DNA of 64,000 nt from Conexibacter woesei Iso977N (lineage in GTDB: Bacteria; Actinomycetota; Thermoleophilia; Solirubrobacterales; Solirubrobacteraceae), in contig NZ_AUKG01000006.1 of the NCBI RefSeq assembly GCF_000424625.1, forward strand, positions 62,001 through 126,000. Direction: 5' to 3'. The stretch's first letter is position 1. Each line of letters starts with the position of its first letter. Positions 24,609-31,590 of this stretch are shown in pieces. Below the pieces are notes generated by a model. That model worked only from the letters and a program-made list of their open reading frames with translations. It ran no database searches and was not told the origin of the DNA. The position numbers and the translations under genes were made by a program.

Positions 24609-26039
24609 ATGGATGGCATCGCCCCCGACCGCCTCGCCGACGCGCTCCGCGTCCTGGCCGAGGTCGAGCAGCTCCCCAGCGAGCACCCCGACGCGGTGGC
24701 GGTGCGCCGCGCCGTCGGCCGCCTGTTCAAGGCGGTCAAGGAGCAGCGGCGCGCCGAGCGGCGCTCGGAGGAGCGCCGCCACGACGACGCGGTGACGGCC
24801 GCGACGGCGACCGGCGCGCCGGGACGCGTGGACGACGAGACGCGCGGGCTGGCTCTGACGTCCAGCGTCGTCTCCGGCACGCGCGCGGGAACGCTGCGGC
24901 GCGCGCGGGGCTGCTACGTCTGCAAGCAGCGCTACGTCGAGGTCGACGCGTTCTACCACCAGCTCTGCCCCGACTGCGCGGCCGAGAACCATGCGCGGCG
25001 CGACGCGCGGACCGACCTGACGGGGCGCCGAGCGCTGTTGACGGGCGGGCGCGCGAAGATCGGGATGTACATCGCGTTGCGGCTGCTGCGCGACGGCGCG
25101 CACACGACGATCACGACGCGGTTCCCGAACGACGCGGTGCGGCGCTTCGCGGCGATGGAGGACAGCGGCGAGTGGCTGCACCGGCTGCGGATCGTCGGGC
25201 TCGACATGCGCGATCCCGGGCAGGTGATCGCGCTGGCCGACGACGTCGCCGCGCAGGGGCACCTGGACATCCTCATCAACAACGCGGCCCAGACCGTGAG
25301 GCGGTCGCCCGCGGCCTACGCGCACCTGGCGGCGACCGCGCAGGTGCCGTTGCCGGAGGGGCCGCTGCCGGAGATCGTGACGCTCGGGCGTGACGGGACG
25401 GCCGCTGCCGGCGGCGCTGCGCTCGGCGATGGGGACCACTGGGCGCCGACGCCGCACGCGCTCGCCGCGCTGGCGCTGACGTCCGGGTCGGACTCGCCGG
25501 AGCGGGTCGCGGCGGGGACCGCGATCGACGCGGGCGGGCTGATCCCGGACCTGCACGCGCACAACTCGTGGAGCCAGGTGGTCGGCGAGGTCGATCCGGT
25601 CGAGCTGCTCGAGGTCCAGCTCTGCAACCAGACCGCGCCGTTCATCCTGATCAGCCGGCTGCGGCCTGCGCTCGCCGCCTCGCCCGCGCGGCGGACCTAC
25701 GTGGTCAACGTGTCGGCGATGGAGGGCCAGTTCGCGCGCGGCTACAAGGGTCCCGGCCACCCGCACACGAACATGGCCAAGGCGGCGCTGAACATGCTGA
25801 CGCGCACGAGCGCGACCGAGCTGCTGACCGACGGGATCCTGATGACCGCCGTCGACACCGGCTGGATCACCGACGAGCGGCCGCACCCGACGAAGATGCG
25901 GCTGGCGGACGATGGCTTCCACTCGCCGCTGGACCTGGTCGACGGCGCGGCGCGTGTCTACGACCCGATCGTCCGCGGCGAGGCGGGCGAGGACCTCCAC
26001 GGCGTGTTCCTGAAGGACTACAAGCCCTCGCCCTGGTAG
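24609..26039 (+). CDS. Short-chain dehydrogenase/reductase-like protein with N-terminal zinc ribbon
   Basis: 476 residues. An N-terminal charged helical part (1-60) leads to a four-cysteine ribbon (Cys102, 105, 120, 123 in CYVC and LCPDC), then a Rossmann domain starting [16 protein letters not shown] (about 142-157). NADP-binding and SDR landmarks remain ([19 protein letters not shown] with the catalytic-type Ser), but the YxxxK motif is altered to TNMAK: the lysine is present and the tyrosine replaced. A ~95-residue insert between the NNAA block and the Ser block is also unusual. A specialised or non-catalytic SDR is suggested. It is divergent from the helicase by 58 bp and overlaps hutI by 22 bp tail-to-tail. 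Confidence 0.78.
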
Positions 26040-27259
26040 CGGGAGTGGACGACCTCGCCGCCTGAGATCGTGGCCGCGACGAGGTCCATCCCCGGGCGGT
26101 AGACGAGGTGCGTCGGCGACGGCGCGTCGAGGACGACCGCGTCGCCGCGGGCGCCGATCCCGAGGTGGCCGAGGTCGGTGCGCTGGAGCGCTTTGGCACC
26201 CCCGGTCGTCGCGGCGGCGAGCGCCTCATCGACCGTCATGTGCATGTCGCGGACGGCGAGCGCGAGGCAGAACGCCATCGACTGCGTGTAGCTCGACCCC
26301 GGGTTGGTGTTCGTCGCGACGGCGACGTGCGCGCCGGCGTCGAGCAGGCGGCGCGCGTCCGGGTAGGGCTGGCGGGTGGAGAAGTCGGTGGCGGGCAGCA
26401 GGGTCGCCACCGTGTCACTCCCCGCGAGCGCCTCCACATCCGCATCGGTCAGGTAGGTGCAGTGATCGACCGACGCCGCACCCAGCTCGCACGCCAGCCG
26501 CACGCCCTCGCCGTAGCCAAGTTGATTGCCATGCACGCGGAGGCCGAGGCCGGCCTCGCGCCCCGCTTCGAGGACACGCCGCGACTGGTCGGCGTCGAAC
26601 GCCCCCTCCTCGCAGAAGACATCGATCCACTTCGCGAACGGCGCGCATGCGGCGAGCATCTCGCCGCAGACCAGATCGACATATCCATCCGGATCCTGCT
26701 CCCACTCCTTCGGCACCAGATGCGCGCCCAGGAACGTGACGTCATCCGTCAGCGCGCTCGCGGCCTCACACAGCCGCCGCTCCCCCTCGACATCGAGCCC
26801 ATAACCCGACTTGATCTCCAGATGCGTGATCCCACACCGCCACGCCTCCACCTTCCGCGCCTGCGCCAGCGCGACGAGCTCCTCGGTGCTCGCGGCCCGC
26901 GTAGCGGCAGTCGTAACACCAATGCCACCCGCCGCATACGGCGCCCCCGCCATCCGCGCCGCGAACTCCTCACCCCGGTCGCCCGCGAAGACCAGATGCG
27001 TATGCGAATCCACGAACCCCGGAACCACACACCGCCCACCGGCATCCAACCGCTCATCAGCAGCAACGCCGGACGCCCCATCGACGATCGCAGCAACCAC
27101 ACCATCTTCGACGACCACCGCCACATCCCGCCGCTCACCCAGCTCCGGATCCTGCGTAACGAGCAACCCGATGTTCTCGATCACCAGCGAGCGCTTCCTC
27201 GCGCCGCCGCCCCGCCTGGCCGGGCCGCGCGTCCTCGTGCGCCTCATCGGGTGGGTCAT
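26018..27259 (-). CDS. hutI: Imidazolonepropionase HutI
   Basis: Opens 4-imidazolone-5-propionate to N-formimino-L-glutamate in histidine breakdown. The 413 residues show [14 protein letters not shown] (HxH metal site), [26 protein letters not shown] and [10 protein letters not shown]. In the last block many HutI have Asp where Asn stands here (AxDxNPG), so a usual metal/catalytic aspartate may be changed. About 20 basic residues precede the domain. The first third uses many T-ending codons (GCT, GTT, GAT, CAT), unlike its neighbours. The start overlaps the hutF stop (ATGA). Confidence 0.92.
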
Positions 27260-28515
27260 CGCGCGATCGCCTCCGTCAGCTCGCGGGCGACGTCGATGGT
27301 GGTGTGGCGGCCGTCGCGGACGACGCGGCGGCCGGCGACGACGAGCTCGCGGACGTCGGCGGCCGTCGCGCTGAAGACCAGCGCCTCCGGTGGGGTTCCG
27401 GCGGTGCGGATGGTGTCGGTTGCGACGGTCACGAAGTCGGCCAGGGCGCCGGTCGCGAGGCGGCCGCCGTCGGGCCAGCCGAGGCAGGCGTAGCCGCCGC
27501 GGGTCGCGGCGTCGAGCAGCTCGGAGGCGCGGTGATGGCCGCGGACGCCGGTCACCAGGCGTTCGTCGAGCTCGATCGCGCGCGCCTCCTCGAACAGGTC
27601 GATCACCGTGTGCGAGTCGCTGCCGACGGACAGCCGCGCGCCCGCGCCGGCGAGCCGGCGAGCCGGGCCGACGCCGTCGGCGAGGTCGCGCTCGGTCGTC
27701 GGGCAGAGGCAGATCGTCCCCACGGAAAGTCGTTCGACGTCCTCATCGGTCAGGTGGGTCGCGTGCACGGCGGTGAAGTTCTCGGCGACCGGCAGCAGCG
27801 CGGCCGGCGTCGCACCGTACCGCTCCAGGCACTCCGCGTTCTCCCGCGGCTGCTCGGAGACGTGCGCGTGCAGCGGCCGCCCGGCCGCCCACGCGCCGAC
27901 GACCGCGGCCTCGTCCGGCTCGACCGCCCGGATCGAGTGGATCGCCGCGCCAACGCGCACGTTGTCATCGTCCTTCAGCCCATCGACGCGCTCGGCCCAC
28001 CCGTGGACGTCCGCGTCGCGGAAGCGGTCCACCCCGCCGTGCAGGTAGCACGTGTCGAGCAGCGTGATCCGGATCCCCGCCTCGGCGGCCGCGGCGATCA
28101 TCGCCCGCCCGGTCTCGTTGGGGTCGGCGTAGGGCGTGCCGTCGGGCGCGTGGTGGACGTAGTGGAACTCGCCGACGACCGTCACGCCCGCCAGCGCCAT
28201 CTCGGCGAACGCGGCGCGGGCGATCGCGTGCAGCTGGTCCGGGTCCAGGCGCGTGGCCAAGGCGTACATCTGCTCGCGCCAGGTCCAGAACGAGCCGGTG
28301 CCGGTCTGCGTGTGGCCGCGCAGCGCGCGCTGGAACGCGTGCGAGTGGGCGTTCGCCAGCCCCGGGATCGTCAGGCCGCGCAGGACCTCGTCGCCGGCCT
28401 CCCTCGCCCCCGCCGCGACCCTGGCGAGCACGCCGCCATCGACGTCCAGCACAACACCGTCGGTCACCGCCCCGTCGACCCACGCCCGCTCGCACCAGTA
28501 CCGCTGCGCGCTCAC
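27256..28515 (-). CDS. hutF: Formimidoylglutamate deiminase HutF
   Basis: Amidohydrolase that removes ammonia from N-formimino-L-glutamate, giving N-formyl-L-glutamate. 419 residues from GTG 28515. Metal-site motifs: [18 protein letters not shown] (HxH), [32 protein letters not shown] and [18 protein letters not shown]. The presence of HutF means histidine is broken down by the five-step route, which needs a separate N-formylglutamate deformylase (normally HutG); none is seen here. GTGA overlap with the peptide-deformylase-like gene upstream, ATGA overlap with hutI. Confidence 0.92.
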
Positions 28516-29090
28516 GATCCCACCCGCTCCACCAGCGCCTCGGCCCGCTTCACGAAGTCCGCGCGCCGGTGCGCGTCGAACTCCGCCCACGTCGAGAACG
28601 TCGCCGGGTCGCGCACGCGGTCCAGGAACATGACGCCGTCGAGGTGGTCGACCTCGTGCTGGAACGTCCCCGCGGTCAGGCCGCGGCGCTCCTCGTCGTG
28701 CGCGACGCCGTCGCGGTCCAGCCACTGCGCGCGCACCGTCACGAAGCGCTCGACGTCGCCGCGCAGGTCCGGGACCGACAGGCAGCCCTCGTTGATCGCG
28801 AAGCGCTCGTCACCGATCGGGGTGAGCACGGGGTTGACGATCACCGTCAGCGGGATCTCCGGCTTGTACGGGTAGCGCGGGTGCGGCTGCCGCACCTCGA
28901 TCACCGCGACGCGGCGCGTGTCGCCGACCTGGTTGGCGGCCAGGCCCGCGCCGCCCGCGTCCCGCATCGTGTCCACCAAGTCGTCGATGAACTGCTGGAA
29001 CGCGTCAGACGCCAGCTCCTCCGCCGACACCTCCCGCGCGCGCTCGCGCAGGACCGGGTGCCCGACCTGGACGATCGGCAGGACCGCCAC
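28512..29090 (-). CDS. Peptide deformylase-family metalloenzyme inside the hut operon
   Basis: 192 residues from GTG 29090. All three peptide-deformylase motifs are intact: GAGLAANQVG, EGCLSVP (metal Cys) and QHEVDHLDG (two metal His and catalytic Glu). It follows hutU with no spacing and overlaps hutF (GTGA). Two readings are possible: an ordinary Def that removes formyl from nascent proteins, or a Def relative that removes formyl from N-formyl-L-glutamate, the product of HutF, in place of HutG. The position between hutU and hutF supports the second; the family assignment is secure, the substrate is inference. Confidence 0.9.
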   Translation of the reverse strand: MAVLPIVQVGHPVLRERAREVSAEELASDAFQQFIDDLVDTMRDAGGAGLAANQVGDTRRVAVIEVRQPHPRYPYKPEIPLTVIVNPVLTPIGDERFAINEGCLSVPDLRGDVERFVTVRAQWLDRDGVAHDEERRGLTAGTFQHEVDHLDGVMFLDRVRDPATFSTWAEFDAHRRADFVKRAEALVERVGS

Positions 29091-30743
29091 CTAGGACTCC
29101 TGCATCGGGATCCGGACGCCGCGCTCGGCCGCGACCTCGATCGCCCGGTCGTAGCCCGCGTCGGCGTGGCGGATGACGCCCATCCCGGGGTCGTTGGTCA
29201 GCGCGCGCTCCAGCTTCTGGGCGGCGAGCTCGGTGCCGTCGGCGACGATCACGATCCCGCTGTGGATCGAGCGGCCGATGCCGACGCCGCCGCCGTGGTG
29301 GATCGACACCCACGTCGCGCCCGACGACGCCGCGGTCAGCGCGTTGAGCAGCGGCCAGTCGGCGATCGCGTCCGAGCCGTCCCTCATGCCCTCGGTCTCG
29401 CGGTAGGGCGAGGCGACCGAGCCGGAGTCGAGGTGGTCGCGGCCGATCACGATCGGCGCCTTGAGCTCGCCGTCGGCGACCATCCTGTTGAAGCGCAACG
29501 CGAGGCGGTGGCGCTCGCCGTAGCCGAGCCAGCAGATCCGGGCGGGCAGGCCCTGGAAGGCGACGTGCTCGCCGGCGGCCGCGATCCAGCGCGCGAGCGG
29601 CTCGTCGTCCGGGAACTCCTCCAGGACCGCGCGGTCGGTCGCGGCGATGTCGGCGGGATCGCCGGAGAGCGCGACCCAGCGGAACGGGCCCTTGCCCTCG
29701 GCGAACAGCGGGCGGATGTAGGCGGGGACGAAGCCGGGGTAGTCGAACGCGCGCTCGAAGCCGCCGAGCTTGGCCTCGGCGCGCAGCGAGTTGCCGTAGT
29801 CGAAGACCTCGGCGCCGGCGTCCTTGAAGCCGACCATCGCGGCGCAGTGGGCGGCCATCGAGCGGCGGGCGCGCTTGACGTACTCCTCGGGGTCCTCGGC
29901 GCGCAGGGCGTCGGCGTCGTCGGTGGTGTCGGGGACGTAGCCGTCGAGCGGGTCGTGGGCGCTGGTCTGGTCGGTGACGATGTCGGCCTCGAAGCCCATG
30001 TCGAGCAACTGCTGGAACATGGTCGCGGCGTTGCCGACGACGCCGACGGAGAGGGGGCGCCTGTCGCGCGCCGCGGCGCGACAGCGCTCGACGGCGTCGT
30101 TCAGATCGTCGGCGCGCTCGTCGAGGTAGCGCTCGTCGATGCGGCGCTTCAGGCGTTGTGCATCAACTTCGACGCACAGCGCGACGCCCTCGTTGAGCGT
30201 GACCGCCAGCGGCTGCGCGCCGCCCATGCCGCCGAGGCCGGCGGTCAGCGTGATCGTCCCGGCCAGCGTGCCGCCGAACCTGCGGCGGGCGATCTCGGCG
30301 AGGCACTCGTAGGTGCCCTGCAGGATGCCCTGGGTCCCGATGTAGATCCAGGAGCCGGCGGTCATCTGGCCGTACATGGTCAGGCCCTCGGCCTCGAGGC
30401 GGCGGAACTCGTCCCAGTTGGCCCAGTCGGGGACGAGGTTGGAGTTGGCGATCAGGACGCGCGGCGCCCATTCCGAGGTGCGGAAGACGCCGACGGGCTT
30501 GCCGGACTGCACGAGCAGCGTCTCGTCGTCGGCCAGGGTCTTGAGCGTGCGGACGATCGCGTCGAACGCCTCCCACGAGCGCGCGGCGCGGCCGGTGCCG
30601 CCGTAGACGACGAGGTCCTCCGGGCGCTCGGCGACCTCGGGGTCGAGGTTGTTCATCAACATGCGCATCGCGGCCTCCTGGGGCCAGGAGACGCAGGACA
30701 GCTCGGTCCCGCGGGGGGCGCGAACGGAGGCACGGCTGGTCAT
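29091..30743 (-). CDS. hutU: Urocanate hydratase HutU
   Basis: NAD-dependent hydratase converting urocanate to imidazolonepropionate. The 550 residues match urocanase throughout: [64 protein letters not shown] (NAD site), [18 protein letters not shown] with the signature Cys, and [15 protein letters not shown]. First gene of hutU-def-hutF-hutI. A divergent IclR regulator starts 79 bp upstream. No histidine ammonia-lyase (hutH) is present in this window. Confidence 0.96.
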
Positions 30744-30822: not shown

Positions 30823-31590
30823 GTGTCGAACGTCCCCGCCGCCACGCAGACCCTGCGAGTGCTCCAGTTCCTCGCGCGCCAGGCGGCGCCGACGCCGGCG
30901 GCGACGATCGCGCGTGAGCTGGGGTTGCCGCGGTCGACGGTGTACCACCTGCTCGGGGCGATGCGCGCGGAGGGGTTCGTCGTCCACCTGCCGGAGGAGC
31001 GGCGCTACGGGCTCGGCGTGGCGGCGTTCGAGCTGGGCTCGGCCTACGCGCGGCAGGAGCCGTTGCGGTGGCTGGCGGCGCCGGCGTTGTCACGGCTCGT
31101 GGGCGCGACGGGGCACAACGGCCACTTCGCGGTGCTGCACGGGAGCGACGTCCTGTACGTGATCGAGGAGCGGGCGCCCGGGCGGCCGAGCCTGGTGACC
31201 GACGTCGGCGTCCGCCTCCCCGCGCAGTTGACGGCGAGCGGCCTGGCGATGCTCGCGGCGCTCCCGCCCGCGCAGGTCCGGGCGCTCTTCCCCTCCAGGA
31301 CGACGATGGTCCTGCGCGAGGGCCGCGGCCCGCAGTCGGTGACCGAGCTGTCCCGCACCCTCGCCGAGACCCGCCGCCGCGGCCACGCCGTCGAAGACGG
31401 GTTGGTGACCGAGGGCTTCGCCTCCGTCGCCGCCGCCGTGATCGATCACGCCGGCCACCCCATCGCCGCCGTCGCCCTGACGTTCCCCGACGACGCCGCG
31501 CCGGACGACGCATCCCGCACCGACCTGGCGGACCACGTCTCCCGCGCCGCAGCCTCCATCGCCCGCGGCCTCGCCGGCCGCCGCACCTAG
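30823..31590 (+). CDS. IclR-family regulator of the hut operon
   Basis: 255 residues from GTG. An N-terminal winged helix ([35 protein letters not shown] in parts, about 8-45) is followed by the IclR effector domain ([70 protein letters not shown]). The segments are canonical. Divergent position suggests regulation of hutU-def-hutF-hutI with urocanate or a later intermediate as effector (inference). Stop overlaps that of the facing wHTH gene in CTAG. Confidence 0.92.

Follow-up and report, generated by a model that had tools for sequence, protein, structure and literature searches.

How does a bacterium complete histidine degradation when its histidine utilization (hut) operon encodes HutF, and its genome gives no match to the HutG family? 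This question is raised by a 64,000-nucleotide stretch of Conexibacter woesei Iso977N DNA (contig NZ_AUKG01000006.1, positions 62,001 to 126,000; hereafter the window), in which a gene of the peptide deformylase (PDF) family, def, lies on the minus strand at 28512..29090, within a hut operon. PDF is an essential housekeeping enzyme and a drug target. The enzymes known for the end of the pathway are HutG (COG3741) and HutG2 (COG0010), as given in the accessible part of Leyn et al. (PMC5343134). In the pathway predicted here, HutI would yield N-formimino-L-glutamate and HutF would deaminate it to N-formyl-L-glutamate. We consider it very likely that the product of the window gene is an N-formyl-L-glutamate deformylase that has the peptide-deformylase fold and replaces HutG, a second means, of independent evolutionary origin, of ending the pathway. 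This metalloenzyme would hydrolyze the formyl group of N-formyl-L-glutamate to give formate and L-glutamate, and protein deformylation would be handled by another def gene.

Family scans above their cut-offs agreed with the gene order hutU-def-hutF-hutI that an initial annotation of the window had proposed, and the four genes are tightly coupled, all on the minus strand. The urocanate hydratase gene hutU (29091..30743) matched TIGR01228 at 936 bits (cut-off 375), and the imidazolonepropionase gene hutI (26018..27259) matched TIGR01224 at 366.3 (cut-off 298.15). The formimidoylglutamate deiminase gene hutF, whose enzyme would make N-formyl-L-glutamate, spans 27256..28515; scanned over 27256-28506, three codons shorter than the full start, it matched TIGR02022 at 432.3 (cut-off 413.05) and NF006681 at 565.6 (cut-off 362). 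The junction letters also showed the zero spacing after hutU and the GTGA overlap with hutF that had been claimed. The 3' end of hutU reads ...GGAGTCCTAG, with a TAG stop, and the GTG of def follows immediately; the def 3' end, TCGTGA, overlaps the GTG start of hutF, and hutF and hutI share an ATGA overlap.

The def product (192 codons from GTG, 192 amino acids) is a complete member of its family, as the annotation had stated, since its match to Pep_deformylase (PF01327) covers almost the whole profile (149.4 bits, cut-off 22.8, positions 2-152 of 156). NCBIfam TIGR00079 matched at 114.3 bits (cut-off 103.95). PF01327 was the sole Pfam match, the FGase (PF05013) profile not matching, and TIGR01879 (M20 hydantoinase/carbamoylase) gave no match to the protein at E <= 0.001. 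Motifs I (GAGLAANQ, 47-54), II (EGCLS, 101-105) and III (HEVDH, 145-149) are present, together with a loop, RYPYKP, at 72-77; E101, C103, H145, E146 and H149 were invariant in 21 hut-linked rows and 19 spread rows of the alignment. The predicted structure was confident (predicted local distance difference test 95.8, predicted template modelling score 0.92) and has a C-terminal helix at 168-190. RYPYKP sits in the loop between model strands 61-66 and 79-91, which we took for the CD loop; according to the available portion of PMC3101196, Leptospira PDF has a mobile, enlarged CD loop. A spurious GC-rich open reading frame was ruled out by the family match and by relatives in several phyla. By sequence and fold we place the protein in the PDF family, an assignment that does not class it as a functional peptide deformylase.

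PF05013 (FGase/HutG) gave no match at E <= 0.001 in the assembly containing the window (5.70 Mb, 96.55% complete), in which the formimidoylglutamase route (COG0010) was not searched for; the earlier remark that no hutG is visible thus holds for that family genome-wide. PF01327 occurred in two places, the window gene and G000:C2:1146400. The latter adjoins priA, with fmt (formyltransferase domain) and NusB/RsmB domains downstream, and is by its sequence context an ordinary def locus. The genome search proposed in the initial annotation therefore returned no FGase match and showed the other def to be part of a priA-def-fmt cluster, and not the combination it had named as contrary to its proposal, a hutG elsewhere with the window gene as the only def.

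We then considered how often this arrangement recurs. Among 151 genomes of the order (Solirubrobacterales), hutU was found in 45, HutF above the cut-off in 43 and PF05013 in 5, and the hut loci of the hutU-bearing genomes were read. A PDF of the window gene's subfamily lay inside the hut cluster in 23 of the 45 hutU genomes, which argues that the neighbourhood is not due to chance; one of these PDFs is split over two frames (G058) and another is cut by a contig end (G102). G102 is also the only one of the five PF05013 genomes with hutU, and its FGase reached 25.6 bits against TIGR02017, the model for HutG (cut-off 278.75). HutF fell into two score classes: of 28 high-scoring genomes, 22 had the PDF in the hut cluster, compared to none of 15 low-scoring ones, and an M20 gene was found in nine of the latter.

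Hut linkage also extends beyond the order. A profile scan with the hut-linked alignment, run on a wider collection from which genomes near that of the window may be absent, returned at least 80 loci. Sorting by motif and profile divided the listed loci into 47 of the subfamily (L137-L183) and 33 ordinary PDFs. The motif rule gave 66 subfamily rows, and L041 (RYPYKQ), outside the rule, was counted in at 298.5; a subfamily profile placed those 66 members and L041 at 254 bits or more and the rest at 214 or less, the same members having built the profile. Among the listed loci, hut genes occurred in the fetched sequence, which reached up to 8 kb to either side, in 26 of 47 subfamily members, two of which apparently repeat genomes of the order search, and in none of the 33 ordinary PDFs. 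The hut-linked loci include many Acidimicrobiia and one gammaproteobacterial metagenome-assembled genome (MAG; L173). The 21 listed subfamily loci without hut neighbours are mostly from Myxococcota (Nannocystis, Polyangium, Enhygromyxa and MAGs), and a comparison of 22 loci (the hut-linked L173 among them), made to find a neighbourhood shared by the non-hut copies, gave none common to all. Over the order and the wider collection together we found five gene orders: hutU-def-hutF-hutI, as in the window; hutU-hutF-def-hutI; hutU-hutF-hutI-def-hutH (L179); hutF-hutH-def (L173); and hutU-hutF-hutI-def (G013, G066 and G069).

A further line of evidence comes from the co-occurrence of the subfamily with HutF. 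Genomes were searched for 43 of the 47 listed subfamily loci, with L137 and L142 (apparent repeats of G013 and G108), L152 and L177 excluded. At E <= 1e-60, 40 of the 43 carriers had HutF, which exceeded the family cut-off in 38 of them. It was present in 21 of the 22 carriers with hut neighbours, where adjacency to hutF makes its presence near-certain in most; the real test therefore lies in the 21 non-adjacent carriers, 19 of which had HutF. Of 140 Myxococcota genomes drawn, 16 carried a full-length subfamily PDF at 272.9 bits or more, and HutF at E <= 1e-70 was found in 13 of these 16, compared to 40 of the 124 others (Fisher p = 2.3e-4, uncorrected for relatedness). The 272-bit line was chosen after the gap had been seen, and the centre genome, G151, was a known carrier with HutF (12 of 15 without it). 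As related genomes are not independent, Fisher values are descriptive.

A quick maximum-likelihood tree was built from 119 PDFs, comprising 62 subfamily rows and 57 others (33 from the wider scan and 24 from the order); L070 and L171 (masked letters), L177 and L181 (fragments or broken) and L002 (a copy of the window gene) were left out. The 62 subfamily rows formed one clade, with a Shimodaira-Hasegawa-like approximate likelihood-ratio test (SH-aLRT) support of 99, that included every one of the tree's 42 hut-linked rows. The window gene grouped most closely with hut-linked rows from its own order, and the genome's own housekeeping def was placed far off, among others of the order. The suggestion that the enzyme was recruited from protein synthesis fits the fold; its own lineage's housekeeping def does not fit as the source, as members of the clade come from several phyla and that gene branches far away from them. 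Support is weak for many branches within the clade, and hut linkage mapped on the tree takes at least three changes, so that the order of linkage gain and loss is not resolvable; some ordinary PDFs sit on long branches. Eight Myxococcota genomes at 203-238 bits and L185:6116-6673 scored between ordinary PDFs and the hut subfamily, and these PDFs, including that of L185 (RYPNKEH, no Trp at 168), are possible intermediates. A third PDF type, very divergent and on a long branch, is carried by three genomes from a single genus within the order (L018:1492-2013, with 173 amino acids and DHCVGLAAPQ; L022; and L125:3133-3654).

Having observed a single clade, we compared residues between the same 62 subfamily rows and 57 other PDFs. 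Thr142 and Tyr75 were present in 62/62 subfamily rows and 0/57 others, with V, I or C in the others at position 142. Trp168 occurred in 58/62 and 0/57, and Ala48 in 61/62 and 7/57; position 76 was Lys or Arg in all 62, with Lys in 4/57 others. Residue 100, before motif II, was Asn, Tyr, Met or Phe in the subfamily and Trp or Glu in 51/57 others. Arg72 and Arg110 (the latter Arg in 62/62 subfamily rows) are not subfamily-specific: of the 33 PDFs from the wider scan, most share them. In Streptococcus agalactiae PDF, the Met side chain occupies an S1' pocket formed by Val71, Leu125, Glu129, Tyr167, Val171 and His174, as listed in the available part of PMC5071857. In our own alignment, Val71 (motif I) would correspond to Ala48, and Val171, three residues before a metal-binding His, to Thr142. 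Of these six positions, that of Val171 is thus Thr in 62/62 rows, the remainder being only partly compared, and in sequence only.

These residues suggest how such a fold might accept N-formyl-L-glutamate. By homology, Cys103, His145 and His149 would be the metal ligands and Glu146 the catalytic residue. The S1' pocket that receives Met in ordinary PDFs may be widened by Ala48, replacing Ile/Val, and by a small residue at 141, which we take, from E. coli PDF, to lie in the substrate pocket. Thr142 would make the pocket polar and so accommodate the Glu side chain. The RYPYKP loop (Tyr75 and Lys76, and Arg72 too, though ordinary PDFs have it as well) may cover the free carboxylates together with the C-terminal helix, which carries Trp168, forming a lid at a place where an ordinary PDF must keep space for the peptide.

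Several observations weigh against assigning N-formylglutamate deformylation to the PDF. In the order, 22 of the 45 hutU genomes have no hut-linked PDF, and 12 have neither a PDF nor a same-direction M20 gene in the fetched cluster, some contigs ending nearby. A search for hutH confined to the contig of the window, both inside and outside the window, found none, and the genome encodes three M20 paralogues outside the operon. Three of the 16 carriers in the Myxococcota draw had no HutF match. PF05013 was present in 20 of the 43 carriers, mostly Myxococcota (16 of the 21 that lack hut neighbours and 4 of the 22 that have them), so that the PDF there may share the role or have another. Ala48 occurs in 7 of the 33 ordinary scan PDFs as well, and the binding mode, with the proposed lid, is predicted from sequence and model. 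As to the carrier FGases, the five best scored 116-139 bits on TIGR02017, below the cut-off of 278.75, in a comparison of these five only that had no known-HutG control. A by-eye comparison found no PF05013 match within 100 kb of hutF on the same contig in the 20 carriers, many of whose assemblies are fragmented.

Some of these points bear on other explanations of the gene. The view that it supplies an ordinary peptide deformylase as an accessory copy, serving for example actinonin-type inhibitor tolerance or translation during amino-acid growth, would sit well with its intact catalytic motifs and its NCBIfam name, peptide deformylase; accessory PDFs occur in almost half of all bacterial genomes and in some cases reduce susceptibility to actinonin, according to the accessible text of a 2025 survey (PMC12690207). 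We nevertheless regard it as unlikely, as the linkage to hut recurs in several gene orders, HutF co-occurs non-adjacently, no ordinary locus among the 33 listed has hut genes and Thr142 is fixed. The Arg97-to-Tyr change that the same text associates with reduced actinonin susceptibility is moreover absent here if Arg110 is the equivalent residue, as in our own alignment. The terms 'hut', 'urocanate' and 'formylglutamate' are absent from the main text of that survey, in the form available. It is highly improbable, in our view, that the PDF acts instead on some other N-formyl or formimino compound of histidine breakdown, with N-formylglutamate removed by another enzyme. Specificity beyond a more polar S1' is unreadable from sequence, and many Myxococcota carriers also have FGase-family genes, as such a role would allow; however, HutF, encoded directly downstream, would make N-formylglutamate, and the genome gave no match to the deformylase known for that compound.

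The M20 genes raise another possibility, namely that N-formylglutamate is deformylated by an allantoate-amidohydrolase-like enzyme from another locus, leaving the PDF with a different role. In the order, the hut clusters of ten of the 45 hutU genomes contain an M20 amidohydrolase gene in the same direction and no PDF, the window's own genome has the three paralogues mentioned above, and two hut-cluster M20 proteins scored 222-240 bits on the model of ErtE (N-carbamyl-L-glutamate amidohydrolase), below its cut-off of 520. The PDF and M20 sets were entered by hand, and an M20 gene was counted only if it ran in the same direction in the cluster; G110 and G136 have uncounted M20 genes nearby (that of G136 on the opposite strand), and the M20 gene of G049 is cut by a contig end. 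We find this explanation quite improbable, as the genome's own M20 genes lie on contigs other than that of hut, and no cluster in the hand-made sets has both genes, an opposite-strand open reading frame intervening before the M20 gene of G110. COG0624 presumably covers the hut-cluster M20 genes seen here. Under histidine degradation it is listed as a predicted 'alternative form of N-formylglutamate deformylase', but the Streptomyces avermitilis protein predicted for the role had no deformylase activity, as reported in Table 3 of PMC3223725, the part of that paper available. The M20 clusters without a PDF are those of G113, G132, G077, G140, G131, G096, G049, G087, G051 and G107 (e.g., L134:7082-8296 and L131:6612-7799); their M20 proteins are allantoate-amidohydrolase-like, and nine of the ten go with the low-scoring HutF class.

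Taken with these alternatives, the non-orthologous replacement of HutG by the window gene is supported by hut linkage in different gene orders, a single clade, the non-adjacent co-occurrence with HutF and the fixed pocket changes; the activity itself is predicted from sequence. More broadly, we think it likely that these genes, currently named 'peptide deformylase', form a previously unrecognised family of PDF-fold N-formyl-L-glutamate deformylases that supplies the missing last step of the HutF-type pathway in Solirubrobacterales, Acidimicrobiia, scattered others and perhaps Myxococcota, a widened, polar S1' and a Tyr-Lys lid having turned a peptide-processing enzyme to catabolism. Among the papers listed by our literature search there was no report of a PDF-type N-formylglutamate deformylase and, in the literature covered, no paper combined 'peptide deformylase' with N-formylglutamate terms. 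If correct, this would be a clear non-orthologous replacement in which a clade left translation for amino-acid catabolism, and it would provide a residue set for testing how PDF specificity switches. It would also correct gene names and fill a gap where an earlier candidate family lacked activity (PMC3223725, in its available part).

Other features of these loci deserve mention. An IclR-family regulator gene, identified by family scans, lies divergently at 30823..31590 on the plus strand and, from its position, may perhaps control the hut operon; IclR-like genes also occur at eight other hut loci fetched from the order. In many relatives hutH adjoins hutU, unlike on the window's contig. Three genomes of one genus (L121 of G063, L122 of G147 and L123 of G119) have the order hutH-hutU-hutF-hutI with no PDF or M20 gene in the cluster and no PF05013 in the genome. 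A second, lower-scoring urocanase adjoins an M20 gene at G113:C1:212389-216330 and G139:C23:6074-10015, and these clusters may perhaps serve thiourocanate or ergothioneine degradation.

Compared to known systems, the candidate shares with HutG (PF05013, TIGR02017, COG3741) the proposed reaction and place after HutF in the pathway, and differs in belonging to an unrelated family, PF05013 having no match in the genome. The M20/COG0624 candidate resembles it in that an M20 gene occupies a place in the hut clusters of related genomes; it too is of an unrelated family, and its S. avermitilis protein is without deformylase activity (PMC3223725, as available). Like accessory PDFs (Vibrio Def2 and integron PDFs), the window gene is an extra PDF beside a housekeeping copy, whereas those enzymes replace the canonical PDF for growth and lower actinonin susceptibility (PMC12690207, accessible text). 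The closest likeness in structure is to Leptospira PDF, which supplied the nearest PDB chains to the model, with 'class I type b' PDFs also within the best 50. With these proteins (PDB 1SV2, 1Y6H, 6JFA and others) the candidate shares the fold (template modelling score 0.84-0.87 to Leptospira PDF by query length), about 40% identity, the catalytic motifs and the loop insertion containing RYP. It differs from them in having Thr in place of Val/Ile/Cys in S1' and Tyr-Lys/Arg in the loop, and its subfamily has Asn/Tyr/Met/Phe before motif II, compared to Trp in 30/33 of the PDFs of that kind, and adds a conserved C-terminal stretch with Trp168 and the linkage to hut.
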